Source: Actinophytocola sp.
GTDB taxonomy: Bacteria > Actinomycetota > Actinomycetes > Mycobacteriales > Pseudonocardiaceae
Direction: 5' to 3'
Assembly (NCBI GenBank): GCA_009379975.1
Contig: WHSS01000004.1
Location: forward strand, 1 to 64,000
DNA length: 64,000 nucleotides
Shown in pieces: positions 40,569 to 60,738 of this stretch. Both the position numbers and the translations under genes were made by a program. The stretch's first letter is position 1. Every line of letters starts with the position of its first letter. Below the pieces are notes generated by a model that was not told where the DNA came from, searched no databases, and saw nothing but the letters and a program-made list of their open reading frames with translations.

Positions 40569-40997
40569 AGGACGAGTTGGCAGGGCGGCCGCGGGCGGTA
40601 CTCGTCAGAGCACCGTCCGAGGAAAGTCCGGACTCCACAGGGCAGGGTGGTTGCTAACGGCAACCCGGGGTGACCCGCGGGAAAGTGCCACAGAAAACAG
40701 ACCGCCGCCGTGGCGGAGCAGGTGCCTCTGGCGCAGGGGACGCAACGGCGGTAAGGGTGAAACGGCGGTGTAAGAGACCACCAGCACCCCGGGTGACCGG
40801 GGTGGCTCGGCAAACCCCACCCGGAGCAAGGCCAAGAGGGCACCTCGGTGCCTGCGCGAGCAACAGGGCGGCCCGTCCTCGCTCGCGGGTAGGCCGCTGG
40901 AGCCCGCCGGCGACGACGGGCCAAGATGGATGGTCGCCACCTGCGGCGCCGCGAGGTGTCGCAGGGACAGGATCCGGCTTACATGCCAACTCGTCCC
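40569..40997 (+). ncRNA. rnpB: RNase P RNA (M1 RNA, type A)
   Basis: About 429 nt. The 5' GACGAGTTGG (40571-40580) pairs perfectly with CCAACTCGTC (40986-40995), closing helix P1. Universal core sequences are present in order: GAGGAAAGTCCGGACTCC near 40619, the GGGTGAAACGGCGGTGTAAG region near 40755 with ACCACCAGC after it, and GGACAGGATCCGGCTTAC near 40963, which pairs back with the first core to form P4. It is the catalytic subunit that matures tRNA 5' ends. Ends are given to within a few bases. Confidence 0.95.
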
Positions 40998-41249: not shown

Positions 41250-41278
41250 TTAACAGAACGGGTTGAGAACGCTACCTT
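41250..41278 (+). promoter_or_regulatory. Putative promoter of the secretion operon
   Basis: TTAACA (41250-41255), 17 bases, TACCTT (41273-41278) fit a housekeeping sigma-factor promoter. It would give an untranslated leader of about 80 nt before the ATG at 41364. Confidence 0.45.
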
Positions 41279-41363: not shown

Positions 41364-41636
41364 ATGACCACCATGATGACCCTTGCGACGCTGGCACAGC
41401 AAGAAGGCGAAATCAGTACCGGAGGGCTGAACGACTGGCTGGTCAACAATGCCATACCGCTCGTCCTGCTCGCGGTCGCGGTACTGCTGCTCTGGCTCGG
41501 CGGCGGTAAGGGCGACAACGCCGGTGTCATGCGCCGTCTCGGGGGTGTGGTGATCGCGCTCGCGATCATCGGCCTCGCGGTGGGCGGCTCGGGAGTGAAG
41601 GTCGGCGAGTGGATCTCCGGCTTGTTCACCGGCTGA
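41364..41636 (+). CDS. Small two-helix membrane protein, VirB2-like candidate pilin
   Basis: A 90-residue protein with two hydrophobic helices ('AIPLVLLAVAVLLLWLGGG' and 'LGGVVIALAIIGLAVGGSGV') joined by a short charged loop. This topology and its position as first gene before VirB3- and VirB4-like genes match VirB2/TrbC-type subunits, but there is no detectable cleaved signal and sequence similarity cannot be claimed by eye. ATG 41364 is preceded by GGGAG. The frame extends upstream without protein-like features. It opens the seven-gene operon to 51120. Confidence 0.6.
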   Translation: MTTMMTLATLAQQEGEISTGGLNDWLVNNAIPLVLLAVAVLLLWLGGGKGDNAGVMRRLGGVVIALAIIGLAVGGSGVKVGEWISGLFTG

Positions 41637-41656
41637 TCAGGGCACGGTGAACCGAC

Positions 41657-42091
41657 TTGCGCATCCGCACCGATGACGAGGTGTACCGCGTCGACGCAGT
41701 CTGGCTCGGTCCGCCGAAAGCGACGTTTCCCTGGCGCGCCCGTTACGTGGCGTGGGGCGTCGGTTTCGTCCTGTTCCTGCTCATACTCACCGTCGAGCGG
41801 CAGCTCGGCATCACCTTCGGTTTCTTCAGCACGGCGTGGGCCTTCGTCATCACCATCGCACTCACCAAACTCATCACCTCGCGCATCAGCCACGAGCGGC
41901 CGCTCGGCGCCGTGCTCGCGATGTGGTTTCGCGAGCTCACCACGCCACGGGAGAAGACAACCGGAGAGGGTGGCGCCGTGAGCGCGAGCAAGGTGCGGAT
42001 CCACACCCAGCGCCCGAGACCGCAGCGAGCACGTCACGGGACGCCCGTCACAGCAGACACACGCCAGCGCGTCATGCAGGCCAGGAGGTAG
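41657..42091 (+). CDS. PrgI/VirB3-like inner membrane protein
   Basis: A 144-residue protein with two adjacent membrane helices in the first half ('YVAWGVGFVLFLLILTVE' and 'FFSTAWAFVITIALTKLI') and a basic, cytoplasmic C-terminal half ending 'RVMQARR'. Two-helix proteins encoded directly before VirB4 in type IV secretion loci belong to the VirB3/PrgI group, and this one fits by size, topology and place. The start is TTG. It stops 3 bp before the ATPase gene, so the two are translationally coupled and likely interact. Confidence 0.65.
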   Translation: MRIRTDDEVYRVDAVWLGPPKATFPWRARYVAWGVGFVLFLLILTVERQLGITFGFFSTAWAFVITIALTKLITSRISHERPLGAVLAMWFRELTTPREKTTGEGGAVSASKVRIHTQRPRPQRARHGTPVTADTRQRVMQARR

Positions 42092-42094
42092 TCG

Positions 42095-45000
42095 TTGTTC
42101 GGTCGCGGCGCAAGCCAGAGCCAGCCGGAGCGGGCCAACCCGGACTCCGGGCCGAACGGCGCGCGCAAGCCTCGCAAGGGGCGCAGACTGCCCGGCGAGC
42201 AGTCGGTGCCCTCCTACACGCCGTCGATCGCCGCCCGCAGCATCGACGGGCATCTGCTCCGCACCAGCCAGGAGATCTACGCCTGGTACCGCCTCTCACC
42301 GCAGCGCTGGTCGTTCCGTTCCGACTCGCAGCGCCGCGACCTGATCGCCGCGATCGCCGGGCAGTACGCCGAGCTGCAAGGCCGGTGGCTGCACCTGCGG
42401 GTCACCACCCGGCCGTATCCGATCCGGATGTGGGCGGAAGCGCACGTCCATAACGCCGCCAACCGGCTGCAGGACACGCCGGGCGCGCAGTCGTTCGACG
42501 ACTACCTGATCGGCGAGCAGCAGCAGCTGATGGGCCGTTCCATGGCGGAGAAAGAGGTGTACCTCGGCGTGCAGGTGCAGACCCGCAACGCGGTGGACCG
42601 GGCCGTCGAGCGCGTCGCCCCGCTGCTGCGCAAGGTGCTGCCCGAGGCCGTCGACGCCGAACTGATCGCGCTCGACTCCGAAGTGGAGCACCTCGATCAG
42701 GTGCTCAGTGCCGCCGGCCTGGAAGGGCGGCCCGCCGAAGCGGGCGAGATGTCCTGGCTGATGCACCGTTCCTGCGCGCTCGGCCTGCCCGCGCCGCGCA
42801 GCATGCCCGCCGTGCCCGGCGCGGCTTGGGAGCCGGAAGACCTCGCCAGCTTCACCGACGCCGCCGACTTCCACGCCGACCCGTACGCGCCGACCGTCAC
42901 CGTGCGCGGGCGCACCGGCTCCAACGCGGGCGTCACCAGTCACCTCACCGTGCTGACCATCGGCCAGATGCACGGCCTGCAGATCCCCGAGGTCGACGAC
43001 CCGTGGATGCAGCACGCCGATCGGCTGCCCTCCGCCGTCGAGTGGTCGGCCCGCATCTATGTGCGGCGGCCCGAGGAGGTCGCCGGCGAGCTCGCCAGGC
43101 AGATGAACAAGGTCCGCTCGCAGGTCAAGCATTACACCGATGAGCACGAGCTGGAGCCACCGCAGTCGCTGTCCCGGCAGGCGGCGCGCGTACTCGAGAT
43201 CGACGACGAGATGACATCGGGCTTCACCGCGCTCGCCACGCGCGTGCATTCCTGGTGGCGGATGGCGGTCTCGGGCCCGACCGAGCGCGACACGCTCCGG
43301 CATGCCCAGCAGCTGCTCGAGCTCTACAAGCCGAAGATCGCCGTCGAGCATCCGGAGGCGCAGTACGCGCTGGCGCGCGAGTTCATCCCCGGTGAGCCGC
43401 TCGCGTCGGCCGCGTACAAGCGGCGCGGCTCGGTGGTGTGGGCGGCGTCCTCGGTGCCGACGGCGACAGCGGACGTCGGCGACCGGCGAGGCATCCTGCT
43501 CGGCGAGACCTGCACCGCGACCCGCAGGCCGGTCGCGTGGGACCCGTGGATGGCGCAGGAGATCAGGGACGGCTCCGGCCTGACGGCAATCGTGGCCGGT
43601 TTAGGCGGGGGCAAGGCGCTGGCACTGGACACCCCGTTGCCCACGCCGACCGGCTGGACCACGATGGGCGAGGTCCAGGTGGGCGATCAGCTGCTGGGAA
43701 TGGATGGCAAGCCTACCGGCGTGATCGCGGCGACGGACGTGATGATCGACCGGCCCTGTTTCGACGTGGTGTTCTCGGACGGATCGGTGATACGCGCGGA
43801 CGCGCAGCATCAGTGGCTGACCCGGACGAGGAAGGACTGGAAGGCGCAGGACCGGCTCAACGAACGAATGCAGCGCGCATCCGCCGCGGTCCCTGCCGCT
43901 GAGGCGCCTCCTGGTATATGTGCTTGCGGTTGCGGTCAGCCGACGCGAAGGTGGACGTATCGGAGAACGCCCATGGCGCGCAGCGACGGCACGTACTACT
44001 ACTCGCGCTTCGCTCATGGCCACCAGCGGCGAGGTGAGATTTCGCTGGTCGCCAATCAGCTGCCCACAGTTCATACGACCGCGGAGATCGCTCAGACGCT
44101 GCGGTCCGGTCAGCAGAACAATCACTCGGTTCCGGTGGCCCGGGCGTTCGACCTGCCCGCAGCCGAGCTGCCGGTCGATCCCTATCTCCTCGGAGCCTGG
44201 CTGGGCGACGGGACCTCCATTCGAGCGGAGATCACGGTCTTCGACCGCGAGATCGTCGACCACATCGAGGCATCCGGCCAAGAGTGCCGACCTCGGCGGG
44301 CCGAAGGACACTACGGCTTGCCGGGCACGTTGCAGAAGCGTTTGCGAGAGCTGGGCGTCCTCGGCGACAAGCACATCCCGGCGGGCTATCTTCGCGCAGC
44401 CGAGCCGCAACGACGTGCCTTGCTCGCCGGTCTGCTGGACACCGACGGCTACTGCAAACCGACCGGCGGCATCCAGTTCTCGGTGACGAACGAGCGGTTG
44501 GCTCGCGGCTTCCATGAACTCGCGCTCAGTCTCGGATACCAGCCCCGGATGAGCACGAAGCGGGTGAAGGGGCGCCACCCGCACACATCGACCGTGTACA
44601 CGATCTCCTTCACGACCGCTGACAAGGTCTTCCGGGTCACTCGGAAGTTGGCGCGTCTCAACCCCAGCATCCGAGACACGAACCACCGTCGGTACATCAC
44701 CGACGTAATCCCGGTCGAATCTGTGGCGGTGCGTTGCGTCCAGGTAGACAACGCCGACCACACGTATCTCGCCGGGAATACATGCATCCCTACGCACAAC
44801 TCTTTTCTTGGCGGCGGCACGGTGTACAAGACGCTGCGGGCGGGCGCGCATTGGACGATCCTCGACCCCTCCGGCCCGCTCTCCAGGCTGTGTGACCTGC
44901 CCGAACTGCGGCCGTACGCGCGTCCGATCAACCTCCTCAACGCGCAGCCCGGCATCCTCAACCCCTACCGGGTCGTCGCGGAGCCGCTGCTCGAGCACTT

Positions 45001-46252
45001 CATGGACGAGGACGATCCGGAGCGGGCCTGGCGCCGGGAGTCGGCGCTGGCGGGCGCGACCCGGCGCAGGCTGGTGCTCGACGTGCTTTCCGGCATCCTG
45101 CCCTACGAGGTCGCCCGGCTGCCGCAGACCAGGATCGTGCTGCTGCGTGCGGTCAGGGCGGTCGGCGGCCGGTTCGACGCCGACCCTGGGCAGGTCATCG
45201 ACGCGCTGCGACGCGACGCGAGCGAGCACCACGAGCATGCCGTCGTCGTCGCCGACTTCCTCGACGAGATGCGTGAGCGCATGTCGCTGCTCATCCCCGA
45301 GGCCGATGCCGACCCGTACCGCGATCACCGCGACGACCGGCTCACCGTGCTGACCATGGCAGGCCTGACGCTGCCCAAGGACGGTGTCGGCCGCGAGCAC
45401 TGGACCGACGCCGAAGCGCTGGGCGTCGAAATGCTCAACCTCGCCGCGTGGCTGACCCAGCGTTCGGTCTATGAGCGGCCGAAGGAGGAGCGCAAGGGTG
45501 TCTGGATCGATGAGGCGTTCTTCCTCTCCGAAGTGCCGACCGGCCGGGTGCTGATGAACCGGTTCGCGCGTGACTCGCGTAAATGGAACGTGCGGGTGCT
45601 GCTGTCGTCGCAGATCCCCGCGGACTTCCTGCGCATCCAAGGGTTCGTCTCGCTGCTCGACTCGGTGTTCGTCGGCAGGCTGGATGACGACGACGTCCAG
45701 TCCGATGCCCTGCGCCTGCTCAAGGTGCCGGTCGGCGTCGGCTACGAACAGGTCGTCTCGGCGCTCGGCAGGCGCCCCGGTATCGCCAGGGGGGAGACCG
45801 AGCGGGACCGCGACCCGCGGCAGTTCATCTTCGCCGATGGCGCTGGCGGCGTGGAGCGCATCAGGGTGGACTTCTCCGGTGCCCACCTCGCGCATCTGCG
45901 CGACGCGCTGGACACCACACCGGGCGCCAAGGAGCCGTCCGGCAGGCAGGAAGCCGCGCCGGCGGTGCAGGGCGGCGGGCGGGGCGAGCAGGCCGCGCAG
46001 CGGCAGGAGCAGGAGCAGGCCCGGCAGGGCGGTATGCCCTTCGACGACGCCGACTTCCAACTGGCCGCCGAGCAGGAGCTCGGCATCGCCGAGGACGACC
46101 TGGGCAAAAACGACGCCAGAGATCCCAGTCACGCCAGAGATGCCAGAGCACCAGAGGAGACAGGAGCCGCAGGAGGAGCCGAAGCCACTCGCGAGGAAGG
46201 AACTCACGCCAGGGCTGGGCGCAAGCGCGGAACCGGCAGGGACGCGGCATGA
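42095..46252 (+). CDS. VirB4-like type IV secretion ATPase interrupted by an intein
   Basis: A 1385-codon gene; after removal of the 395-residue intein (codons 508-902) the ATPase has 990 residues. The N-terminal about 480 residues are a CagE/TrbE/VirB-like domain. The Walker A motif Ala-Gly-Leu-Gly-Gly-Gly-Lys507 | Ser903 is split by the intein between Lys and Ser, so the ATPase is inactive until splicing. Walker B is 'GVWIDEAFF' at about 1135-1143, followed by 'VLLSSQIPADFLRIQGF'. A Gln/Glu-rich low-complexity tail of about 90 residues ends the protein. VirB4 proteins power assembly and substrate transfer in type IV secretion. The start is TTG at 42095, 3 bp after the VirB3-like gene. Confidence 0.85.
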   Translation: MFGRGASQSQPERANPDSGPNGARKPRKGRRLPGEQSVPSYTPSIAARSIDGHLLRTSQEIYAWYRLSPQRWSFRSDSQRRDLIAAIAGQYAELQGRWLHLRVTTRPYPIRMWAEAHVHNAANRLQDTPGAQSFDDYLIGEQQQLMGRSMAEKEVYLGVQVQTRNAVDRAVERVAPLLRKVLPEAVDAELIALDSEVEHLDQVLSAAGLEGRPAEAGEMSWLMHRSCALGLPAPRSMPAVPGAAWEPEDLASFTDAADFHADPYAPTVTVRGRTGSNAGVTSHLTVLTIGQMHGLQIPEVDDPWMQHADRLPSAVEWSARIYVRRPEEVAGELARQMNKVRSQVKHYTDEHELEPPQSLSRQAARVLEIDDEMTSGFTALATRVHSWWRMAVSGPTERDTLRHAQQLLELYKPKIAVEHPEAQYALAREFIPGEPLASAAYKRRGSVVWAASSVPTATADVGDRRGILLGETCTATRRPVAWDPWMAQEIRDGSGLTAIVAGLGGGKALALDTPLPTPTGWTTMGEVQVGDQLLGMDGKPTGVIAATDVMIDRPCFDVVFSDGSVIRADAQHQWLTRTRKDWKAQDRLNERMQRASAAVPAAEAPPGICACGCGQPTRRWTYRRTPMARSDGTYYYSRFAHGHQRRGEISLVANQLPTVHTTAEIAQTLRSGQQNNHSVPVARAFDLPAAELPVDPYLLGAWLGDGTSIRAEITVFDREIVDHIEASGQECRPRRAEGHYGLPGTLQKRLRELGVLGDKHIPAGYLRAAEPQRRALLAGLLDTDGYCKPTGGIQFSVTNERLARGFHELALSLGYQPRMSTKRVKGRHPHTSTVYTISFTTADKVFRVTRKLARLNPSIRDTNHRRYITDVIPVESVAVRCVQVDNADHTYLAGNTCIPTHNSFLGGGTVYKTLRAGAHWTILDPSGPLSRLCDLPELRPYARPINLLNAQPGILNPYRVVAEPLLEHFMDEDDPERAWRRESALAGATRRRLVLDVLSGILPYEVARLPQTRIVLLRAVRAVGGRFDADPGQVIDALRRDASEHHEHAVVVADFLDEMRERMSLLIPEADADPYRDHRDDRLTVLTMAGLTLPKDGVGREHWTDAEALGVEMLNLAAWLTQRSVYERPKEERKGVWIDEAFFLSEVPTGRVLMNRFARDSRKWNVRVLLSSQIPADFLRIQGFVSLLDSVFVGRLDDDDVQSDALRLLKVPVGVGYEQVVSALGRRPGIARGETERDRDPRQFIFADGAGGVERIRVDFSGAHLAHLRDALDTTPGAKEPSGRQEAAPAVQGGGRGEQAAQRQEQEQARQGGMPFDDADFQLAAEQELGIAEDDLGKNDARDPSHARDARAPEETGAAGGAEATREEGTHARAGRKRGTGRDAA
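43616..44800 (+). mobile_element. Class 3-type intein with LAGLIDADG homing endonuclease in VirB4 Walker A
   Basis: 395 codons inserted in frame between Lys507 and Ser903 of the VirB4-like ATPase. It begins Ala-Leu-Ala-Leu-Asp-Thr-Pro (no Cys or Ser at position 1) and ends Pro-Thr-His-Asn before Ser+1. The three class 3 residues are present: Trp574 in block B ('DAQHQWLT'), Cys881 in block F ('VRCVQVD') and Thr900 in block G. Endonuclease motifs are 'LLGAWLGDG' (698-706) and 'LLAGLLDTDG' (776-785), both with their Asp. A cysteine cluster (Cys609, 611, 613) lies between block B and the endonuclease. GC content and codon use are slightly less extreme than in the extein. Confidence 0.92.
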
Positions 46253-46343
46253 GGACTGCTTGCAGGTCCGAATCATCGGGCACCATGCCTCTGCCTGCCA
46301 ATGATCTGGCGCGGCTTGCCGCTTTCCGTTGGGAGCCGCGGGC

Positions 46344-48422
46344 ATGAGCGGGTGGACCGTGCTGGTGGTGATCATCGCTGCCGTTGCCGTGGCGCGAGCG
46401 GCTCGGCGGCGTCTCAAACGTCCCGGCGGTCATCGTGGCCGGATCATGCTCATCGTCACCGCGCTCGTCGGGTTCCAGCTGCTCATCGGCGCGCCGATGG
46501 CCGCGGCGAGCAAATGCGGTGAGGCGCCGAACCCCGAGCGGCCGGGCACCGGGATGGTAGGTGCGCTCGATCCCGCGGAAGACCGTGGCGAGCCCGGCAG
46601 CCCCTACAGCGACTACAGCTACGCGGGCATGGTCTGGCACACCTTCGAAACCGAATGCGATGCGCTCTCCGGGGTCACCGACGCGAACACCACGCTCGAT
46701 ACCTGGGCGGGAAACCAGCTGTTCAACATCGGCAAGAACATCGCGGGCGCCACCAACGCGCTGCACTACACCGTGATGGAAGGCGGGCTGTTCACCCCGC
46801 TGCACAACGCCATCAAAACCGGCACCGAGAAGGTCTACAACAACATCTACGCGCAGCTGTTCGGCCTGGTCGCGCTGTTGCTGGCGATCCTGATGTTCCG
46901 CCACATCTGGCGCGGTGACCTGCCCTCGGTGAGCAAGCGCGCGCTCTTCGCCCTCGGTGCGGTATGGCTGGCGGCGTCGTCGCTGGCCTTGCTGCGGTAC
47001 TTCGACAGCATCGACAACGCGATCGTGAACACCACGACCAAGATCCAAGCGGGCTTTGTCGACCATTCCGAGAACCGCAACGTCGAGGACGTCCTGCCGA
47101 CGAACCTGCACAACGAGATCGTCTACAAGAACTGGCTGCGCGGCGAGTTCGGCTCGCCGGATGCCGCCGAGGCCGAAGAACACGGCATGCCGCTGCTCGA
47201 CGCGCAGGCGTTCACCTGGGAACAGATGGCCAACGGCGATGACGGCGACGAGAGGGTCATCGACGAGAAGAACCGGGAATACGAGCGCATCGCGGAGGAG
47301 CTCGGGCCGTCACAGGGCTACTTCACCGGAGAGGACGGCAGCCGCACCGGCGCCGGCTTCATCGCGCTCCTGCAAAGCCTGGTGTATTCGCTGTTCCAGC
47401 TCCTCGCCAAGGCCGCCGTGCTGCTGGCGCAAGTGCTGGTCAGACTGCTCACCTTGACGGCGCCCCTGCTGGGCCTGGTCGCACTGCTGCATCACGACAT
47501 CCTGCGTCGCGTCGCGAAGGTCGCGGGCACCGTCGGGTTCAACCTGATCGTGCTCTCGGTATTGGCGGGCGTGCACGCGCTGCTGTTGAACGCGATCTTC
47601 GCCGCGGCGGGCCCGCTGTCCATGCTGACGCAGATGGCGATGGCAGGCCTGGTGACGATCTTGCTCTTCGTCGTCGGCAGGCCGGTACGCAGGCTGTGGC
47701 AGATGGTGGACGTGACGACCAGGACGGTCGGCGCCGCGCTGCCCACCGCGCCGAGCTTGTTCTCCCGATTCCGGCGCAAGCAGGAGGGCCGGACGCCGCA
47801 GGACGAGTTCTGGCAGAACGTCAAGGACACCGATACCGACGCGATCGAGCACGCGCCGGGGCCGATGGGCAGCTCCACCATGGCGAACCGGCGGGTGCGG
47901 CCCGAGGCGAGGACCCCGGTCGCCGCCTCCGCCCAGCGGCTCGACCGGCGCGGCGAGGCCGGGCAGGCGGCGTTGGGTACCACGGCGGGCAGGCCCGCGC
48001 TGCCGCCCGGCGGTATGCCACAGCCCGCCGCACTCGGTTTCACACCGGGAGGCGTGCGCGGCGACGGCATGGCTCCCGGCAGGCCGCAGTACCAAACGGC
48101 CGTGCGCGCGGACGGCGGTCCCGCTCAGCCGAGGCGCCGCTTCGACGCACCGGTCCGCGGCCAAGCTCCCGCTCTCGACTACGGCGATCCGCTCGTCATA
48201 CCGTCCCGGATGCCCGGCACGCAGCCCGAGACAGGCGGTGCGCCCGATACACCCGTTGACATGCCCGGCGAGCGGCAGTCGCGCACCGGCGGGCCGCAGC
48301 CGCGCCGGGCGGACACCGAAGTGATCAACGGCAAACCGGTATTCGTGCTGTATCGGCCGTCACGCGGCCTCGAAGTACGGCCGGACAACGCTGTCCGCGA
48401 CACCGATTCCGTGGTGAGGTGA
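46344..48422 (+). CDS. VirB6/TrbL-like polytopic membrane protein
   Basis: A 692-residue protein. A membrane helix at about 3-18, a second signal-like hydrophobic segment ending 'GAPMAAAS', an extracytoplasmic region, then several helices: 'LFGLVALLLAILMFRHIW', 'ALGAVWLAASSLALLRYF', and a cluster between about 340 and 460. The last 200 residues are a proline/arginine-rich cytoplasmic tail. The layout resembles VirB6/TrbL proteins, the membrane channel of type IV secretion systems. ATG 46344 with GGGAG is preferred to TTG 46329. It lies 91 bp after the ATPase gene. Confidence 0.7.
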   Translation: MSGWTVLVVIIAAVAVARAARRRLKRPGGHRGRIMLIVTALVGFQLLIGAPMAAASKCGEAPNPERPGTGMVGALDPAEDRGEPGSPYSDYSYAGMVWHTFETECDALSGVTDANTTLDTWAGNQLFNIGKNIAGATNALHYTVMEGGLFTPLHNAIKTGTEKVYNNIYAQLFGLVALLLAILMFRHIWRGDLPSVSKRALFALGAVWLAASSLALLRYFDSIDNAIVNTTTKIQAGFVDHSENRNVEDVLPTNLHNEIVYKNWLRGEFGSPDAAEAEEHGMPLLDAQAFTWEQMANGDDGDERVIDEKNREYERIAEELGPSQGYFTGEDGSRTGAGFIALLQSLVYSLFQLLAKAAVLLAQVLVRLLTLTAPLLGLVALLHHDILRRVAKVAGTVGFNLIVLSVLAGVHALLLNAIFAAAGPLSMLTQMAMAGLVTILLFVVGRPVRRLWQMVDVTTRTVGAALPTAPSLFSRFRRKQEGRTPQDEFWQNVKDTDTDAIEHAPGPMGSSTMANRRVRPEARTPVAASAQRLDRRGEAGQAALGTTAGRPALPPGGMPQPAALGFTPGGVRGDGMAPGRPQYQTAVRADGGPAQPRRRFDAPVRGQAPALDYGDPLVIPSRMPGTQPETGGAPDTPVDMPGERQSRTGGPQPRRADTEVINGKPVFVLYRPSRGLEVRPDNAVRDTDSVVR

Positions 48423-48429
48423 TCGCGGC

Positions 48430-49047
48430 ATGCCGATTCGGACCCATCGCGGCCGGGCCGCGGTCTACCGGCGGATCTGGGGCGCGCCGTTGCGCTCGCC
48501 GAAGCACCTCATCGTCACCGTGGTGATCATGGTCGCGCTGGTCACGACCGTCGGCTTCGTGGTGCCGAAGCTGATCCCCGGCGGGGACACGCCGTCACCC
48601 GCGGCGAGCGAAAGCGAGAACCGGTGGACGCACGAGGACAGCGAGGAGTCCTCCGCCGCATCGCCGGGGAAAGCCATACCGGCTGAGCCGTCCGAGACCC
48701 GATTGACCGAGTCACCGCTCTCACCCACTTCGGCGCCTGCCGCCCCCGAGGCGGTCGCCGCGGCGACGAAGTGGGCGCGGGCATGGGTCGACCATCCGGA
48801 GGGCACCACCAGCGAGAAGTGGCTCGCCGGCCTCGCTCCTTACACGACCGACGAATACCTGCCCGTGATGGAATCCGTCGAGCCGCCGAACATTCCCGCG
48901 TCGAAGGTCATCGGCAAGGCGAAGGTCACCCATTCGACTTCGAGTTCGGTCGAAGCTGAGGTGCCTACGGACGGCCCGACGCTGCTGATCACGGTGGTCA
49001 AGACCCATGACGGGTGGCTTGTCGCCGCCTACGACCAAGGGTCCTGA
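48430..49047 (+). CDS. Bitopic membrane protein, VirB8-like
   Basis: A 205-residue protein: a basic cytoplasmic N-terminus, one membrane helix ('LIVTVVIMVALVTTVGFVVP'), a Ser/Glu/Pro-rich linker and a C-terminal domain of about 100 residues ('VAAATKWARAWVDH', 'ASKVIGKAKVTH', 'GWLVAAYDQGS') with the alpha+beta pattern of NTF2-like VirB8/TraM domains. Such proteins stabilise the translocation channel in Gram-positive type IV secretion. Assignment is by topology and position rather than direct similarity. It starts 7 bp after the VirB6-like gene. Confidence 0.6.
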   Translation: MPIRTHRGRAAVYRRIWGAPLRSPKHLIVTVVIMVALVTTVGFVVPKLIPGGDTPSPAASESENRWTHEDSEESSAASPGKAIPAEPSETRLTESPLSPTSAPAAPEAVAAATKWARAWVDHPEGTTSEKWLAGLAPYTTDEYLPVMESVEPPNIPASKVIGKAKVTHSTSSSVEAEVPTDGPTLLITVVKTHDGWLVAAYDQGS

Positions 49048-49051
49048 TCCG

Positions 49052-50053
49052 ATGCGCCTCGGTGTGGTGGTGGCCTGCCTCGTTGCCGCGACGGCGTTCG
49101 CCGTGGTCGTCGCGACGACCACGGTGGTCAGCGTCATCGAAGCCGACGAGCGGGCGCAGGCCGGCGGGATCAGCACCGTCAGCTGCGAGGCGTCGATCGG
49201 GCCGACCGGGCAGGGTGATCGGCGCCGGGCCGAGGTCCAGGTGGGCAACCTCGACGAAGAGCAGCGGGGCATCGTCGCGCTCATCGTTTCGATCGGGAAA
49301 CAGCGCGAGTTGTCGCCCCGCGCGTGGCAGATCGCGATCCAGGCGGGCATGACCGAGTCCGGGCTGCGTAACCTCCGGCACGGCGACCGTGACTCGCTCG
49401 GGATCTTCCAGATGCGGCCGTCGATGGGATGGGGAACGATCGCTCAGGTGACCCATCCGACCTATCAGGTCAACAAGTTCTACGACGTGCTCGAATCGCT
49501 GCCGGACTGGCAGAGCCGCAGGCCGGGCGACGCCGCCCAGGCGGTCGAGCGTTCCGCGTTTCCCGATCGCTATCATCAGTGGGAGTCGATGGCGGTTCAT
49601 CTGGTCGAGAACGTCGGCAAGGTCGGCGACGCCGCCGGGTGCGGTGAGAGTGCCGGCTCCGCGCTGCCCCCGAGCGAGGCCGCGGCGCAGGCGATCAAGT
49701 TCGCGATGAAGGAGCGGGGCAAGCCCTATGTGTGGGGTGCGACCGGGCCCGATTCCTACGACTGCTCGGGGCTGTTGCTGCGGGCGTTCGAGTCCGCCGG
49801 CATAACGCTGCCGCGGGTGTCGCGTGATCAGTACCGGGCGGGTGCGATGCTCCCGGTCGAGAAGGCGAAGCCGGGTGACCTGTTGTTCTGGGCCTATGAC
49901 CGGTCCAACCCGGCCACCATCCACCACGTCGCGATGTACATCGGCGACGGCCAGATCGTCGAAGCTCAGCAGTCCGGCGTGCCGGTGCACACCCGGTCGG
50001 TGGTATTTGACGAGGCGGAACTGCTGCCGGTCGCGGTCCGTCCGGGAGTCTGA
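49052..50053 (+). CDS. Cell-wall hydrolase: lysozyme-like domain plus NlpC/P60 endopeptidase
   Basis: A 333-residue protein: an N-terminal membrane anchor ('LGVVVACLVAATAFAVVVA'), a transglycosylase-like region ('TESGLRNLRHGDRDSLGIFQ' with its Glu) and a C-terminal NlpC/P60 domain ('YDCSGLLLRAFE' catalytic Cys, 'HHVAMYIGDGQIVEA' catalytic His). This two-enzyme layout is the Gram-positive equivalent of VirB1 (as in Tn916 Orf14/TcpG): it opens peptidoglycan for the secretion apparatus. ATG 49052 follows the preceding stop by 4 bp; the in-frame upstream codon lies inside that gene. Confidence 0.88.
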   Translation: MRLGVVVACLVAATAFAVVVATTTVVSVIEADERAQAGGISTVSCEASIGPTGQGDRRRAEVQVGNLDEEQRGIVALIVSIGKQRELSPRAWQIAIQAGMTESGLRNLRHGDRDSLGIFQMRPSMGWGTIAQVTHPTYQVNKFYDVLESLPDWQSRRPGDAAQAVERSAFPDRYHQWESMAVHLVENVGKVGDAAGCGESAGSALPPSEAAAQAIKFAMKERGKPYVWGATGPDSYDCSGLLLRAFESAGITLPRVSRDQYRAGAMLPVEKAKPGDLLFWAYDRSNPATIHHVAMYIGDGQIVEAQQSGVPVHTRSVVFDEAELLPVAVRPGV

Positions 50054-50091
50054 GGTCCGCCGGTGAGACACAGCAGAAGGGATGCGCAGTC

Positions 50092-51120
50092 GTGAAATTC
50101 GGTAAGCGGTCAAAGCTGCCCGTCGAGCCCGAGCAGCGGTCCGACCCGCGGAGTTCCTTCGCCGGCGCGCCACTGCCGAGACACGCGGGCCCGCCTGCTT
50201 CGAGCACGCCGCTGGCCGATCAGCTGGCCCGCGGTGGCCCCGGCGTCGATGCCGACTACGTCGTGCTGCCTCGCTCGCTCGCCGAGCAGATGCCGCTGCC
50301 GTGGCAGCGGCAGATGGCGCAAGCGCTCGGCCAGTTTCATCGCACGCATCAGGGTTTGTCCTGGCCGCGGTATCGGGTGCTGCCCTCCCGCGAGGAGAAT
50401 CTGGTCGATCTCGACGAGCAGCAACTGGCCGAGGCGGGCTATGTCGTCGAGATGGACTCCGACGGCGAGCTGGTCTACCGCGAGCACAGCGGCAGGCAGG
50501 TCGACGACCCGGAGCACAAGAAGGTGCTGGTGACCTGCCTCGACCCGGTCATCGCGGGCCGGCGCTCCGCGCCGCCGCGAGCCGATGGCCCCGCGGTGCC
50601 GTCGCAGGCCAGCCCGGGGGCGGACGCGCAGGCCCCGGGTGCGCCGGGCGAGCCGCGGTCCTGGCCCCCGGCGCCGATGAACATCGGGCCCCAGCCGGTG
50701 TGGCACCCGGTCTCGCCCGGCGAGCGGCAGCAGCGGCCCCCGGCCCCGCCGTTGCCCGAGCAGCCGGTGGCGGAAGCGCCCGCGCCACCGCCCCCTGCCC
50801 CGCCAGCCCCGCCAGCTGTGCCAACTCCGTCAGCCGAGCCGGACGTTGGTGCGCCGGAGGACGACATGGTCACCCCACCGAGCGGGATCACGATGCCCGC
50901 CGCGACGGCTGAGCAGAACGTCGACTGGTTCGGCGAAGGCGCGGTGGCGGAGGAGGCCGGCGACCAGGCCGGAGACGAGGCCGGTGTTTCCGGCGTCGAG
51001 TCGGGTAACGGCAGGCAGGATGACCGGGGCGAGGACCACGCCGGCGGCGAAGACGATGCGCCGCAGACCTTCGGCCCGAGCGGGGATCCGATCGAGCGGC
51101 CCTACCGTTTCGGCGGTTGA
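50092..51120 (+). CDS. Proline-rich protein of the secretion operon
   Basis: A 342-residue cytoplasmic-looking protein without membrane segments. Residues about 45-150 are ordered and charged ('LPWQRQMAQALGQFHRTHQG', 'LVDLDEQQLAEAGYVVEMDS'); the rest is low-complexity Pro/Ala/Glu/Asp ending 'RPYRFGG'. No family was recognised. As last gene of the operon it may be an adaptor or substrate of the secretion machine. The GTG start is preceded by AAGGGA. Confidence 0.6.
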   Translation: MKFGKRSKLPVEPEQRSDPRSSFAGAPLPRHAGPPASSTPLADQLARGGPGVDADYVVLPRSLAEQMPLPWQRQMAQALGQFHRTHQGLSWPRYRVLPSREENLVDLDEQQLAEAGYVVEMDSDGELVYREHSGRQVDDPEHKKVLVTCLDPVIAGRRSAPPRADGPAVPSQASPGADAQAPGAPGEPRSWPPAPMNIGPQPVWHPVSPGERQQRPPAPPLPEQPVAEAPAPPPPAPPAPPAVPTPSAEPDVGAPEDDMVTPPSGITMPAATAEQNVDWFGEGAVAEEAGDQAGDEAGVSGVESGNGRQDDRGEDHAGGEDDAPQTFGPSGDPIERPYRFGG

Positions 51121-51235: not shown

Positions 51236-51266
51236 GACTTATGAGTAGACCATGGACACTGGACAC

Positions 51267-51479
51267 ATGGCTGCACGTGGCAAAGACCCGAATCCGGACA
51301 AGGGCTGGTACTACAACACCAAGACGGGCGAGGTCGAGCACCTTGAGCTGTCGCGGTCGATTGATCGGCTGGGGCCCTATCCCGACGAAGCCACCGCCCG
51401 GCGGGCGCTCGAGATCGCCCGAAAGCGCACCGAGGAAGCCGATCGCGCCGACCGGGAGTTCAACCGCGGCGGCGACTAG
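51267..51479 (+). CDS. Small actinobacterial protein (SPOR-like annotation)
   Basis: A 70-residue protein: 'DKGWYYNTKTGEVEHLELSR' then 'LGPYPDEATARRALEIARKR'. Similar short proteins in actinomycetes are often named SPOR-domain proteins; the aromatic N-terminal strand and an amphipathic helix are visible, but no function is known. ATG 51267 is chosen because relatives start Met-Ala; ATG 51252 five codons upstream is possible. A hairpin repeat follows the stop. Confidence 0.7.
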   Translation: MAARGKDPNPDKGWYYNTKTGEVEHLELSRSIDRLGPYPDEATARRALEIARKRTEEADRADREFNRGGD

Positions 51480-51493
51480 TTGGCTTGGGAGGC

Positions 51494-51553
51494 GGTGGAG
51501 CCGAAGGTGGCCCTGGGCGCCATATAGGCACCCCATGGCACCTTCGTGCCACC
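51494..51553 (+). repeat. Post-stop hairpin repeat, copy 3
   Basis: It lies 14 bp after the stop codon of the small protein, sense orientation: 'GGTGGAGCCGAAGGTGGC', the 'CCATATAGG' core and 'ATGGCACCTTCGTGCC'. Same layout as copies at 20540 and 40287. Likely terminator. Confidence 0.75.
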
Positions 51554-51596
51554 TGAGATCCAGGGCGACTAGTCCCATTCCAGCGGGCGGCGCAGG

Positions 51597-51602
51597 TATC
51601 GT
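51597..51602 (+). promoter_or_regulatory. -10 box of a leaderless transcript (RNase II-like gene)
   Basis: TATCGT is followed by seven bases (GCGTGGC) and GTG 51610. It supports that start over GTG 51601, which overlaps the -10 box. Confidence 0.5.
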
Positions 51603-51609
51603 GCGTGGC

Positions 51610-53037
51610 GTGGACGACGCACCTGCCGACAAGTCGGCCGCCTCGTGGGACTTCGCCGCCGTGCGCGCGGAGTTCGATCTCCCGGAGGGCTTCGCGCAGT
51701 CCGTGCTCGCCGAGGCGGAGGAAACCGCGACGAACGCGCGGGAGCTCGCAGGCGATCGTGACGATGCCACCGACCTGCCGTTCGTCACCATCGACCCGCC
51801 GGGCGCCAAGGACCTCGACCAGGCGTTGCTCGTCGAGCGGCGGCCCGGAGGTGGCTACCGGGTCTCTTACGCGATCGCCGATCTAGGCGCCTTCGTCATC
51901 CCCGATGGCGCGATCGACAACGACGCCCGGCGGCGCGGTCAGACGCTCTACCTGCCTGACGGCAACATCCCGCTGCACCCGCCGTTGCTGTCCGAGGGCG
52001 CGGCGAGCCTGCTGCCCGGCGAGACCAGGCCCGCGGTGCTGTGGCGGATCGACACCGACTCCGATGGCCAGCCGACGAGCGTCGACGTGCGCAGGGCGCT
52101 GGTGCGTTCGATCGAGCGGTTCGACTACGAGGGGGTGCAGGCCGCGCTCGAGCGTGGCACGTCGCACCCGTCGATCGAGGTGCTGGCCGATTTCGGCAGG
52201 TTGCGGCGGGCACGCGCGGTCGAACGCGGTGCGCTCGAACTGCAACTGCCGGAGCAGCAGATCACCTGCGGCGCTCGTGGCGACTGGTCGCTCGCGTTAC
52301 GGCTGCGCACCGAGGTCGACGCCTGGAACGCGGAGATTTCGCTGCTGACCGGTATGTGTGCGGCGCGGATGATGCTGGCGGCAGGCGTCGGGGTGGTGCG
52401 GACGCTGCCGGATGCGGATTCGGAAGAGTTGCGCCGGTTGCGCCGGTCCGCCACGACGCTGGGTATCGAGTGGCCCGCGGGCACGAGTGTCGCCGAGTTG
52501 CTCGCCGGGCTCGACCCGGACCGTCCCGAATCGCTCGCGCTCTACACCGACAGCACCCGGCTGCTGCGCGGTGCCGGCTACACCGCGTTCGACGGCGGCG
52601 CTCCCGAAGGCGCGACGCATGCCGGCATCGGTGGGCCGTATGCCCATGTCACCGCCCCGATCCGGCGACTGGTCGATCGCTTCGCCACCGAGGTCTGCCT
52701 CGCGGTGAACAGCGACAGCCCGGTGCCCGAATGGACCAGGGCCGCGCTCGCCGACCTGCCGTCGCTGATGGGGATATCGGACACCCTCGCGGCCAAGGTC
52801 GAGCGCGCATGCCTCGACCAGGTCGAGGCATGGGTACTCGCCGAGCGGATCGGGCAGTGGTTCCAAGCGGTGGTGCTGCGTGCCGACGAAACCAAGGCCG
52901 AAGTGCTGCTGACCGATCCGCCGGTGCTGGCCAAATGCGCCGGAGCGGGTATGCCCGAAGGCGGGCACGTGACGCTCAAGCTGCTCGACGTGGACGTGGC
53001 CGCGCGAACGGTTTCCTTCGAACGGGTGACAGGCTGA
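51610..53037 (+). CDS. RNase II/RNB-family exoribonuclease, short form
   Basis: A 475-residue protein built around an RNB domain: 'VTIDPPGAKDLDQALLVE' carries the catalytic aspartates, and 'GGPYAHVTAPIRRLVDRF' is the conserved arginine motif. There are no cold-shock domains at the N-terminus and no S1 domain at the C-terminus, so it is much shorter than E. coli RNase II/R; this short form is usual in actinomycetes. It degrades RNA 3'-5' processively. Its stop shares one base with the next start (TGATG). Confidence 0.88.
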   Translation: MDDAPADKSAASWDFAAVRAEFDLPEGFAQSVLAEAEETATNARELAGDRDDATDLPFVTIDPPGAKDLDQALLVERRPGGGYRVSYAIADLGAFVIPDGAIDNDARRRGQTLYLPDGNIPLHPPLLSEGAASLLPGETRPAVLWRIDTDSDGQPTSVDVRRALVRSIERFDYEGVQAALERGTSHPSIEVLADFGRLRRARAVERGALELQLPEQQITCGARGDWSLALRLRTEVDAWNAEISLLTGMCAARMMLAAGVGVVRTLPDADSEELRRLRRSATTLGIEWPAGTSVAELLAGLDPDRPESLALYTDSTRLLRGAGYTAFDGGAPEGATHAGIGGPYAHVTAPIRRLVDRFATEVCLAVNSDSPVPEWTRAALADLPSLMGISDTLAAKVERACLDQVEAWVLAERIGQWFQAVVLRADETKAEVLLTDPPVLAKCAGAGMPEGGHVTLKLLDVDVAARTVSFERVTG

Positions 53038-53826: not shown

Positions 53827-54711
53827 TCAGTGGAAGGCGTGCCCGGGCGCCGGGAACTCGCCGCGCCGGACCTCCTCGGCGTACGCGCTCGCCGCCCCGG
53901 AGATCACCCCGGCGACATCGGCGTAGCGCTTGACGAAGCGTGGGGCCTTACCCCGGCGCAGCCCGACCATGTCCTGCCAGACCAGTACCTGCGCGTCGCA
54001 GTCCGGACCGGCGCCGATGCCGACGGTGGGGATGGCGAGCTCGTGCGTGACCTTCTTCGCCACCTCGGCGGGCACCATTTCCATCACGACGGAGAACGCG
54101 CCTGCCTCCTGGAGCGCGAGGGCGTCCTCGACCAGGGCGGCCCCCGTGTCACCCCGCCCCTGGACCCGGTAGCCGCCCAGGTTGTGTTCACTCTGCGGGG
54201 TGAATCCGATGTGGCCCATGACGGGGATGCCCGCGGTGGTCAGCGCTTCGACGTGCGGCGCGAACTTGCGGCCGCCTTCGAGCTTGACGGCATGTGCGCG
54301 GCCTTCCTTCATGAAGCGCACCGAGGTGGCAACTGCCTGCTCCGGGGAAAGCTGATACGACCCGAAGGGCAGGTCGGCGACGACCAGAGCACGCTTCACG
54401 GCGCCGGTCACCGCACGCACCAGCGGGATCAGTTCGTCCACCGTCACCGGCAGGGAGGTTTCGTAGCCGAAGACGTTGTTGGCCGCCGAGTCGCCGACGA
54501 GCAGCACCGGAATGCCCGCCTCGTCGAACAGTTCGGCGGTGTACATGTCGTACGCGGTCAGCATGGGCCACGGCTCGCCGCGATCCTTGAGCTCCCGCAA
54601 GTGGTGAACGCGGACCTTCTTCGGTGCTTTGACCTGCTGGGTCGAGGCGCCGTTGCCGTAGGGCGCTTGCTCTTCGGCGGGTACTGAAGCGCCGGTGGAT
54701 GGGGTGGACAT
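53827..54711 (-). CDS. panB: 3-methyl-2-oxobutanoate hydroxymethyltransferase
   Basis: A 294-residue PanB with an extra N-terminal tail of about 35 residues. Signatures include '[20 protein letters not shown]', '[20 protein letters not shown]', 'AVKLEGG' and '[20 protein letters not shown]'. It adds a hydroxymethyl group from methylenetetrahydrofolate to 2-oxoisovalerate, the first step to pantothenate and CoA; the metal-binding Asp is in 'VGDSAA'. ATG 54711 is chosen; the frame continues upstream without similarity. It converges on the metal-receptor gene with only 4 bp between. Confidence 0.95.
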
Positions 54712-55014
54712 AGTCGTCGACCGTCCTTTCCTCGAGGCCCATACGGGTCCCCGGGCGGTATTGGCTCCCCGCTTCGGCTGATCACGGCCCGAGCTTGCCG
54801 CCATTGCTGGTCGACTGGCTCACCAGTGGCGAAGGTGAATCGCCGTCGCGTGGATGGTGTGCACGTCAAGCGTGGCACCAGATCACCTCGGCCGCACCGG
54901 CCATGCGACGAGGCTCACACTCCGGTGCCCGATGCCTGAGGTCGAGGCGCACGCTTCCCGACCAAAACGCTTGTTACGGGTACGCTTCCCAGGGGCGATC
55001 ACAAGGGAGTGCGC
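54712..55014. other. Divergent intergenic region between panB and a small hypothetical gene
   Basis: About 300 bp without a supported gene. A possible plus-strand promoter is TTGTTA near 54971 with TACGCT near 54981, too close for a standard spacer; nothing else stands out. Confidence 0.4.
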
Positions 55015-58395: not shown

Positions 58396-60738
58396 TCAGG
58401 TGCGTTTCTTCCGCAACATCCCGCGCACCTTCTTCAGCGCCTGCTCCGCGTCCGAGTCGAACGGGTTGTCGTGCACCAGGTAGGTCCAGGTCGAGGTCGG
58501 CCGCGCGACACCCGATGCGCCGAGGTCGATGCCACCGTCGGTGATCTCCGCCTTGGTGAACGACTCGACCGCGCGCGACCGTGCCTCGGAGATGATCTTG
58601 TGGAACTCGGGGATGGCGGCGCGGTGGAACTCGTCGATCGGGGTCTCCCTGCCCAGCGCACGCAGGTGGATGCTCTCCCGCACGTCGGCGAGGAACGCGA
58701 GGTGATCGGACCACAGCTGGTCGACGTGGTAGAGCAGGATCTCCCGGCATACCCGCGATGCCGTCGCGTCGTCGAACTTCTCGGTGAGCTCGACGTAGTG
58801 TTCTTCCGCTTCGGTGGCCAGCAGTTCGGCGGCGAGTTCGGTGCGCACCACCTCGTCCCGGAACTTCAGCAGGTCGGCGCGCTGCCGCTCGATCAGCCGG
58901 GTGTAGCGCCAGGTGTTGCGGTGGATCTCCAGGTTCGCGCCTTCCACCACGCGCTGGGCATGGTTGAGGTGGCGCTGTGCCGCGGGATCGGTGACCTCGT
59001 CGTTCTCGTCGGGCCGGATGCCTTGCGGGACGTCGGGGGCGCCCGCCAGCACCAGTTCGTCGTTGAGGCTGGCGAAGAAGACCGAGCCGCCGGGATCGCC
59101 CTGCCTGCCCGCGCGCCCGCGCAACTGGTCGTCGAGTCTGCTGCTGGGATAGCGCGCGGTGCCGATGACGTAGAGGCCGCCGAGGTCGACGACCCCCTGC
59201 CACGCCGACTCGTCGCCCGAACTGCCGCCGAGCTTGATGTCGGTGCCACGTCCGGCCATCTGCGTGGACACGGTGATCGCGCTCGCCTTGCCCGCCTCGG
59301 CGATGATCTCCGCCTCTTCGGCGTCGTTGCGCGCGTTGAGTACGGTGACCTCGAGGCTGGCCTTCACCAGCTTCTCGGCGAGTTCCTCGGACTCCGCGAC
59401 GTCCTGGGTGCCGACCAGGATCGGCCTGCCCAGCTCGTGGACCCGGCGGATCTCGGCCACGATCGCGCGCAGCTTGTCCGACGGCGACGCGAAGATGCGG
59501 TCGGGTTCGTCAACGCGCACGTTGTCGGTGTTGGGCGGGATCACCGCGACCTCGAGCCGGTAGAACTCGCGCAGCGTCTCCGCGACGGCCACGGCGGTTC
59601 CCGTCATGCCCGCGACGGTCGGGTACCGGGCGATGAGTGCCTGCACGGTGATCGAGTCGAGGATCTCGCCGCGATCGGACGCGGGCAACTGCTCCTTGGC
59701 TTCGACCGCGGCCTGCAGGCCGTCCGGCCACCGCTGCAGCTCCGCGACCCGGCCGCGGGAAGCGTTGATCAGCTGGACCTTGCCATCGCGCACCAGGTAG
59801 TCCACGTCGCGGGTGAGCAGTGCATGCGCGTGGAGCGCGACGTTGACCGATGCCAGTCGTTCCGAGCCGGTGTGGCCGTAGAGCTCGATACCGCCGAGCG
59901 CCTTCTCGACCACCGACGCGCCGGCGGGCGTGAGCCAGGCGTTCTTGCCGTCGGAGTCGGTCTCGTAGTGCAGCCCGAGCCGCAGCCGCCGGACGATCTT
60001 GGCGACTTCCTCGTCGGCGACGCCCGCATCCACGGAGCCCGCCATCACCAGCGGCACCCGTGCTTCGTCGACGAGCACCGAGTCGGCCTCGTCGATGATG
60101 GCGACCTCCGGTTCGGCGAGCACGATGTCCTCGGCGCCGGTCACCAACCGGTCGCGCAGCACATCGAAGCCGATCTCGCTGACCGCCCCGTAGGTCACTT
60201 CGCAGTCGTAGGCCGCACGACGTTCGCCGTGGGTGCGGGCAGGCTCCACCCAGTCGACGGAGACGCCGAGCAGGTCGAACACCGGGCGCATCCACTCCGC
60301 GTCGCGGCGGGCGAGGTAGTCGTTGACGGAGATGACGTGCACGCGCTTGCCTTGCAGCGCATACCCGCAGGCGGCGAGCGCGCCGGCGAGGGTCTTACCC
60401 TCACCGGTGGCCATCTGCACGACATGGCCGGTGAGCAGGCCCATGACGCCGAGTAGCTGCACGTCGAAAGGGCGTTCGTCGAGCGCCCGCCGCGCGGCCT
60501 CCCGGCCGAGGGCGCACACCTCGATCAGCTGCGGGTGACCGAAGGAGGCTTCGAGCCGGAGCTGGGCCGCCGACTCCGCCAGTTCCTCATCGGAGAGGTC
60601 GCGCATGCTGTCTTCGCGCGCCTCGATCGCGGGCAGCAACTTCTCGTACTTGGTCAGCGCGACGCTGGCAGGCCGCTGGATGATTCTGCGCAGCCGACTG
60701 CCGACCTTGGTCCGCATCGGCAGTTGCCCGCGGCTCAT
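58396..60738 (-). CDS. secA2: Accessory Sec translocase ATPase SecA2
   Basis: A 780-residue SecA. The motor is intact: Walker A 'QMATGEGKTLAGALAACGYA', Walker B 'IIDEADSVLVDEARVPL', 'TVAGMTGTA' and 'STQMAGRGTDIKLGG', 'DDQLRGRAGRQGDPG'. It lacks the long C-terminal linker and zinc-binding tail of housekeeping SecA1 and is shorter, which is typical of actinobacterial SecA2. It exports a limited set of proteins with the SecYEG channel. ATG 60738 has a GGGAG ribosome site. It diverges from a lipoprotein hydrolase gene. Confidence 0.92.
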   Translation of the reverse strand: MSRGQLPMRTKVGSRLRRIIQRPASVALTKYEKLLPAIEAREDSMRDLSDEELAESAAQLRLEASFGHPQLIEVCALGREAARRALDERPFDVQLLGVMGLLTGHVVQMATGEGKTLAGALAACGYALQGKRVHVISVNDYLARRDAEWMRPVFDLLGVSVDWVEPARTHGERRAAYDCEVTYGAVSEIGFDVLRDRLVTGAEDIVLAEPEVAIIDEADSVLVDEARVPLVMAGSVDAGVADEEVAKIVRRLRLGLHYETDSDGKNAWLTPAGASVVEKALGGIELYGHTGSERLASVNVALHAHALLTRDVDYLVRDGKVQLINASRGRVAELQRWPDGLQAAVEAKEQLPASDRGEILDSITVQALIARYPTVAGMTGTAVAVAETLREFYRLEVAVIPPNTDNVRVDEPDRIFASPSDKLRAIVAEIRRVHELGRPILVGTQDVAESEELAEKLVKASLEVTVLNARNDAEEAEIIAEAGKASAITVSTQMAGRGTDIKLGGSSGDESAWQGVVDLGGLYVIGTARYPSSRLDDQLRGRAGRQGDPGGSVFFASLNDELVLAGAPDVPQGIRPDENDEVTDPAAQRHLNHAQRVVEGANLEIHRNTWRYTRLIERQRADLLKFRDEVVRTELAAELLATEAEEHYVELTEKFDDATASRVCREILLYHVDQLWSDHLAFLADVRESIHLRALGRETPIDEFHRAAIPEFHKIISEARSRAVESFTKAEITDGGIDLGASGVARPTSTWTYLVHDNPFDSDAEQALKKVRGMLRKKRT

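Follow-up and report, generated by a model that had tools for sequence, protein, structure and literature searches.

Type IV secretion systems (T4SSs) of Gram-positive bacteria are the subject of a 2025 review according to which nearly all of their known functions consist of DNA translocation only, effector export by them being called a long-standing question (PMC12857230). In actinobacteria, a survey of integrative and conjugative elements (ICEs) used PF12846 as the mark of VirB4 and reported 17 T4SS-type ICEs (PMC3218068), and a chromosomal operon of Streptomyces coelicolor, cmdABCDEF, has been likened to the transfer genes of SLP2; bacteria that have lost it show disturbed sporulation and chromosome segregation and an unchanged transfer of an SLP2-derived plasmid (PMC2782261). 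We analyzed a stretch of 64,000 nucleotides from Actinophytocola sp. (assembly GCA_009379975.1, contig WHSS01000004.1, positions 1–64,000 of the forward strand; hereafter the window), in which seven plus-strand genes spanning positions 41364–51120 encode, as read from their sequences, a T4SS translocon of the Gram-positive type. Judged from the distribution of its VirB4 gene, the locus is core to Pseudonocardiaceae, and its motor is interrupted at the ATP site by an intein. No description of a family-wide locus or of a VirB4 intein was found among the titles and abstract beginnings of the open-licence papers that the literature searches listed.

Distribution and anatomy of the locus

Seven co-oriented genes had been proposed for this region in an initial annotation made from the DNA letters alone, and the listing of open reading frames (ORFs) together with their translation bears them out as follows.

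41364–41636, + strand: gene 1, 90 residues, with two hydrophobic segments; its likeness to VirB2 is one of topology only
41657–42091, + strand: gene 2, 144 residues, two hydrophobic segments, VirB3/PrgI-like by topology and position only
42095–46252, + strand: gene 3, VirB4-type ATPase (PF12846), precursor of 1385 residues including the intein
46329–48422, + strand: gene 4, VirB6-like, 697 residues, eight hydrophobic segments (NF046089, below cut-off)
48430–49047, + strand: gene 5, VirB8-like, one transmembrane (TM) helix and an NTF2-type domain (AlphaFold2 model, Foldseek, VIA-align)
49052–50053, + strand: gene 6, membrane-anchored NlpC/P60 hydrolase (PF00877) with a transglycosylase-like Glu motif upstream; the ORF reaches back to 49007
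50092–51120, + strand: gene 7, cytoplasmic, conserved N-terminal domain and variable proline-rich tail (alignment, no TM segment)

The C-terminal part of VirB4 downstream of the intein (the C-extein) was used as the query for its distribution. It matched all 200 family genomes sampled (own included), representing 46 of 46 genera, and all 183 of those of good quality. In a class-wide sample, VirB4 was found in 15 of 158 genomes (own included), mostly at low identity, the best outsider, genome G294, reaching 38%. A scan of named sequences yielded 207 relatives, and the best 80 of these 207 are nearly all titled as Pseudonocardiaceae genera. One hundred loci were compared: these best 80, plus a further 20 taken from the family list, of which 15 have long contigs and are spread across different genera and 5 were chosen for unusually long frames. 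By tblastn, all 100 contain VirB4, 99 contain genes 1 and 2, 98 contain gene 4, 94 contain genes 5 and 6, and 91 contain gene 7. In the 80 named loci, profile hidden Markov models (HMMs) of genes 1 to 7 recovered, in this order, 79, 79, 78, 75, 75, 75 and 74, and three loci devoid of gene 7 by tblastn contain it by HMM. These counts include flanks that are frequently cut by contig ends, and runs of N in the gene-lacking loci L112, L146 and L056 as well as in L140. The order of the seven-gene set is conserved across the family, which confirms, at the level of sequence, that the set is more than a chance assembly. As to the surroundings, the same tblastn comparison found the RNB-domain gene in 76, an RNase H gene in 69 and panB in 53 of the 100 loci. 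The synteny check suggested beforehand, whether the operon always stands beside rnpB, reveals a usual arrangement and not a strict one: rnpB lies upstream in 91 loci, at variable distance, and is reversed in L054 and L137.

A quick VirB4 tree of 53 sequences places 44 family rows on one side of a branch with an SH-aLRT support of 100; many of the sub-clades follow genera, and the window groups with Actinophytocola metagenome-assembled genomes. All nine outside rows of this tree were flagged as long branches, and their order is untrustworthy. One sequence titled Nocardia sp. NRRL S-836 (L096) clusters with Lentzea, and its name may be wrong. Of the seven proteins, VirB4 shows the highest conservation, with median identities to the window of 85% for its N-part and 78% for its C-part, compared to 66% for gene 6, 74% for panB and 65% for the RNB-domain gene. 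The ratio of nonsynonymous to synonymous substitution rates (dN/dS) of VirB4 lies between 0.028 and 0.118 in nine close pairs, the loosest values being found for gene 5 (up to 0.48) and gene 7 (up to 0.46). Neither TraG/VirD4 nor relaxase genes, which the initial annotation had named as the finding that would speak against a resident machine, were encountered with six queries for coupling proteins and relaxases in any of the 100 loci.

Profile searches assign gene 3 to PF12846 (E 4.5e-14); it also matches the TcpF model, below the cut-off of that model. The Walker B motif RKGVWIDEAFFL is present in 78 of 78 named VirB4s, and Walker A is uninterrupted in 77 of them, the remaining one carrying an intein. 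The window protein has both the Walker A and the Walker B motif of the VirB4 ATPase of a Gram-positive, MPF_FA-like T4SS, its Walker A being interrupted by the intein; at an E-value of 0.01, no solved VirB4 relative was found for the C-extein by sequence. Gene 4, which had been called VirB6/TrbL-like, matches the CD3337/EF1877-family model NF046089 with an E-value of 2.8e-11 and 42.9 bits, below the cut-off of 120; we tentatively read it as VirB6-like, and it has eight hydrophobic segments. For gene 5 the proposed VirB8 relationship is borne out by its predicted fold. In the AlphaFold model a single TM helix accompanies a domain whose block-mean pLDDT is at least 95 over residues 101–200, the top Foldseek match is TcpC (3ub1, E 5.6e-3, probability 1.00), and the best VIA-align rows belong to the VirB8 family with Z-scores from 11.2 to 9.0 (pIP501 TraM 11.2, TcpC 10.7, then DotI, CagV, VirB8 and PrgL). 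The fold alone would not settle the identity of this protein, because unrelated NTF2-like proteins follow in the list at Z-scores of 9.0 or less; the gene order adds weight, and the VirB8-like assignment is supported by the model in this context. Gene 6 had been described as a dual cell-wall hydrolase, of which the NlpC/P60 half stands (PF00877, E 3.8e-23, Cys motif kept in 75 of 75 named loci); the second, transglycosylase-like domain has no Pfam match and is represented by a conserved Glu-containing motif only (74 of 75 loci). According to the family alignment its start is probably at 49052 and not at 49007. Gene 7 does have the proline-rich character noted before, in a tail of 185 residues with 22% proline, and it also has a conserved N-terminal domain that had not been described; no TM segment was detected.

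Further observations concern gene 7. Its fold could not be retained from modelling (mean pLDDT 69.7, no significant PDB match). The phage family phrog_3527 matches it over residues 54–85 only (about 30 residues), and a motif around LPRSLAEQMPLPWQ (window 50092–50580) recurs in phrog_3527 and in proteins with phage-like surroundings (L182, L183 and L185). Of 246 class genomes, 4 (own included) have matches to the gene 7 domain, and in the three others the neighbourhood looks phage-like by eye. The length of the gene 7 frame varies between about 160 and about 990 codons, growth taking place almost wholly in the tail (L118 15166–18147, other Amycolatopsis loci).

The features bordering the operon in the window are the following.

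40573–40997, + strand: rnpB, RNase P RNA of class A (Rfam RF00010, 276.4 bits), upstream neighbour
41250–41278, + strand: possible weak promoter, TTAACA-N17-TACCTT, which the window shares with the five rows closest to it in the alignment of upstream regions
51241–53037, + strand: RNB-domain exoribonuclease (PF00773), downstream neighbour, true start uncertain
53827–54804, − strand: panB (PF02548), downstream neighbour

These Rfam and Pfam matches confirm the setting between rnpB and RNase/panB that had been reported before. Of ten flanking window proteins that were scanned, nine carry domains of housekeeping proteins, enzymes or regulators and one has no match, and neither an integrase nor a relaxase is among them. 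The possible promoter matches 8 of 12 consensus positions, below the reporting level of the scan, and scans for sigma-70 promoters and terminators yielded nothing exceeding shuffled sequences. A conserved hairpin masking the ribosome site of gene 1 was considered and rejected (z-scores from −2.0 to 1.3 in eight folded sequences, one of them at −2), as was a defence system, PADLOC returning only the endonuclease of the intein. A SecA-family protein of 780 residues, short enough for an accessory SecA, is encoded at 58396–60738 on the minus strand, about 7 kb past gene 7.

A class 3 intein in the Walker A motif of VirB4

The initial annotation had identified gene 3 as VirB4 and had overlooked an intein within it, which divides the coding sequence as follows.

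42095–43615, + strand: N-extein of VirB4, ending in the Walker A residues GLGGGK
43616–44800, + strand: class 3 intein of 395 residues with a LAGLIDADG homing endonuclease domain (residues 508–902 of gene 3)
44801–46249, + strand: C-extein of VirB4, starting with SFLGGG

The intein is inserted exactly at the Lys–Ser junction of Walker A (GGGK|S), the Lys-to-Ser/Thr position being described as a classic one for P-loop inteins (PMC5050341), and relatives with an empty site read through it without gap as GLG[GA]GKSFLGGG. The intein starts with ALALDTPLPTP, ends with PTHN, and matches LAGLIDADG_3 (E 5.7e-6), TIGR01443 and the DnaB inteins 6rix, 6riy and 6bs8 of the PDB. Class 3 inteins are marked by the lack of a nucleophile at position 1, a DxxH block B and a W-C-T triplet (PMC6195587). 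Ala1, DxxH and W-C-T are present in all six VirB4 inteins aligned, namely those of the window, of genomes G068, G111, G065 and G036 and of Amycolatopsis alkalitolerans, in which block B is DAEH; by these sequence marks the insert is a class 3 intein. Only 1 of the 78 VirB4s of the named loci carries it. The six hosts are scattered across Pseudonocardiaceae, which makes horizontal spread of the intein likely; the distances do not prove such spread, intein identities (72–87%) and extein identities (79–86%) being of the same order. The length of the VirB4 frame was discarded as a sign of an intein, since the frames of G171 and G195 are long and intein-free. Relatives of the intein occur in 719 of 50,697 phage records, all below 60% identity.

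Two other inteins or intein-like sequences were noticed in the same genome. Its DnaB (G000:C220:978–1862; L003, L007) contains a related P-loop intein, 55–58% identical to the six VirB4 inteins; the endonuclease of this DnaB intein is probably dead, because GAG replaces the GDG of the VirB4 intein in the first LAGLIDADG motif. A third and weaker match, of 32–34% identity, lies in another frame (G000:C100:19927–20997; L004, L006).

Origin, cargo and competing explanations

Among plasmid records, 86 match the C-extein of VirB4, all below 60% identity. Four linear plasmids (the Streptomyces sp. 891-h plasmid, pSM17C, Pseudonocardia p1 and Gordonia pSMJS1.2) encode a VirB4 approximately 36–42% identical to that of the window, and by HMM they contain genes 2 to 6 in the window order, gene 1 on two of the four and gene 7 on none. 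These modules are plasmid-borne and have very long branches in the VirB4 tree, whereas the window operon is chromosomal. A VirD4- or FtsK-type protein is encoded near the module in three of the four plasmid regions: adjoining it on pSM17C, where the protein is annotated as a T4SS DNA transfer protein and matches PF02534 only at E 0.021, adjoining it on pSMJS1.2, where it is of the FtsK/SpoIIIE type, and about 2 kb off, with two genes in between, on the 891-h plasmid; no coupling-type protein was seen in the part of Pseudonocardia p1 that was read. Gene 7 is also absent at the five outside loci examined. Chromosomal sets without gene 7 were observed at other sites in other families of the order, upstream of an mshC-like gene in G362 (L170) and beside a folP-like gene in G294 (L168), these neighbours being identified by eye. 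Because the nearest outside relatives are six-gene linear-plasmid modules of about 40% identity, it is on balance probable that a translocon of the linear-plasmid type turned into a resident chromosomal operon in an ancestor of Pseudonocardiaceae, its coupling protein being lost or never brought along and gene 7 being gained.

The initial annotation proposed a resident machine and not a conjugative element, and this is well sustained by the family-wide presence, the fixed neighbourhood, the tree following genera and purifying selection; the conjugative ancestry that it wished to see excluded appears likely, the nearest outside relatives residing on actinobacterial linear plasmids. Protein export, and gene 7 as an adaptor or substrate, which it also put forward, keep the standing of proposals. 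Its arguments from the missing VirB11 and the missing relaxase describe absences common in comparable systems and carry little weight, because VirB11 is described as universally absent from Gram-positive T4SSs (PMC12857230) and because many actinobacterial linear plasmids are reported to lack a relaxase (PMC12803027).

From the anatomy of the locus, its conservation across the family, the selection acting on it, the negative outcome of the tests for coupling and relaxase genes at the loci, and the class and site of the intein, we infer the following for translocation, cargo, the role of gene 7 and splicing. Gene 6 would open the peptidoglycan, gene 5 with its VirB8 fold would scaffold the wall-side complex, gene 4 together with the small membrane proteins of genes 1 and 2 would form the membrane channel, and VirB4 would power the translocon. 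Gene 7, with a globular domain and a long, likely disordered tail, may take over from a coupling protein in bringing or gating the substrate. The likeliest cargo would be a protein, or a component of the surface, that leaves the cell during growth or development. The intein-bearing VirB4 precursor is probably inactive, its Walker A being split, and ATPase activity would arise only after splicing, with the Walker A Ser as the +1 residue; the insertion site and the DnaB precedent suggest that the intein must splice before the motor works. A more far-reaching reading, with a probability of roughly 0.4, is a dedicated and vertically inherited T4SS of the family that would export a non-DNA cargo or build a surface structure, operate without any VirD4-type coupling protein and use gene 7 as its loader, its motor being repeatedly targeted by a mobile class 3 intein and maybe regulated by splicing.

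Several observations weigh against the translocon proposed above and against parts of the history proposed for it. A coupling protein could be encoded at another place in the genome, 8 of 13 family genomes (own included) having PF02534 proteins; none was found in the locus with six queries in 100 loci, TraG-type proteins are sporadic outside it, and no search was aimed at FtsK-type ones. The long branches of the outside rows leave the direction from plasmid to chromosome unproven. VirB4 is in three and four pieces in G163 and G191, with weaker best E-values, gene 7 belongs to no recognised family, and the His motif of gene 6 as written was found in only 62 of 75 named loci. Genes 1 and 2 have no family match over the cut-off in profile searches, two hydrophobic segments and the gene order being the part of the VirB2-like and VirB3/PrgI-like labels of the initial annotation that holds.

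An unlikely yet serious alternative is a resident DNA-transfer channel, serving chromosomal DNA, the DNA of elements with their own coupling protein and relaxase, or chromosome segregation at sporulation, with an FtsK- or TraG-type ATPase encoded elsewhere. The linear-plasmid relatives with coupling-type proteins near three of four modules, two of them adjoining, would fit such a channel, as would the requirement for cmdABCDEF in normal sporulation and chromosome segregation of S. coelicolor (PMC2782261) and the presence, in the genome of the window, of a TraG-type coupling protein and a MobF relaxase on another contig (G000:C32, L173, 32–1513 and 4672–9114 of 10.5 kb), a distinct mobile element of this genome. 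Against such a channel, PF02534 is missing in 5 of the 13 operon-bearing genomes (one of which is 74% complete), the coupling protein of pSM17C has only two weak matches in 60 family genomes, and SLP2 is of another lineage, which reduces the cmd phenotype to an analogy. The TraG elements of G005 and G010 are moreover accompanied by SCO6880-type transfer genes of their own; for this reason a resident pore serving coupling-protein elements without a pore was rejected as an idea, a rejection that covers these two genomes, contig C32 of the own genome being cut. One SCO6880-family transfer protein (L175, 12971–14875, minus strand) matches the type VII secretion model EccE with an E-value of 2.8e-8, below cut-off.

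That the hydrolase is itself the effector, the VirB proteins positioning and energising it for wall remodelling without passage of a substrate, appears improbable; gene 6 is indeed a conserved membrane-anchored hydrolase that has kept its catalytic Cys, but VirB4 exceeds it in conservation, as fits a motor-centred machine. The view of the locus as an integrated conjugative element, or as what decay has left of one, is largely refuted and most improbable: homologous modules do exist on plasmids, but presence in every family genome sampled and a fixed neighbourhood leave no sporadic mobile distribution, the motor motifs are intact with low dN/dS, and neither the 100 loci (coupling proteins, relaxases) nor the ten flanking proteins (integrases, relaxases) gave a match.

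A T4SS translocon with a constant chromosomal place throughout an antibiotic-producing family, with the DNA-loading parts missing at its locus, offers a tractable case for the question of effector export, and the intein in the ATP site of its motor a natural on/off test. Because the locus is present family-wide, Pseudonocardiaceae genomes may be miscounted in studies that take VirB4 as a sign of mobile elements.

Comparison with known systems

The intein resembles the class 3 intein of mycobacterial DnaB (DnaBi1) in Ala1, DxxH and W-C-T and in its insertion into a P-loop with the Walker A Ser as +1; it differs from it in its host protein, VirB4, and in the presence of a LAGLIDADG domain, DnaBi1 being a mini-intein (PMC6195587). 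The operon shares with SLP2 and cmdABCDEF a VirB4-type ATPase, membrane proteins and a hydrolase, and cmd is also a chromosomal operon (PMC2782261). Orthology with cmdABCDEF was nevertheless rejected, the comparison by sequence being made with SLP2 in place of cmd itself, which is tied to SLP2 only through PMC2782261. Because SLP2 is matched by one of the seven window profiles only (gene 6) and holds a fragment of the SCO6880 family, in another gene order, the window operon is a separate lineage, whose history seems to run parallel. The MPF_FA systems (Tcp of pCW3, Tn916) have in common with it a VirB4 (matching the TcpF model), a VirB8-type domain (matching TcpC, 3ub1), NlpC-type proteins, the lack of VirB11 and, if gene 4 is read correctly, a VirB6-like protein, whereas the window locus contains neither coupling protein nor relaxase, is part of the core chromosome, and matches the curated VirB4 and VirB6 models below their cut-offs. 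Thus, on sequence grounds the operon is clearly a relative of T4SSs, and what is new in it is its core status, the apparent lack of a coupling protein and the added gene.

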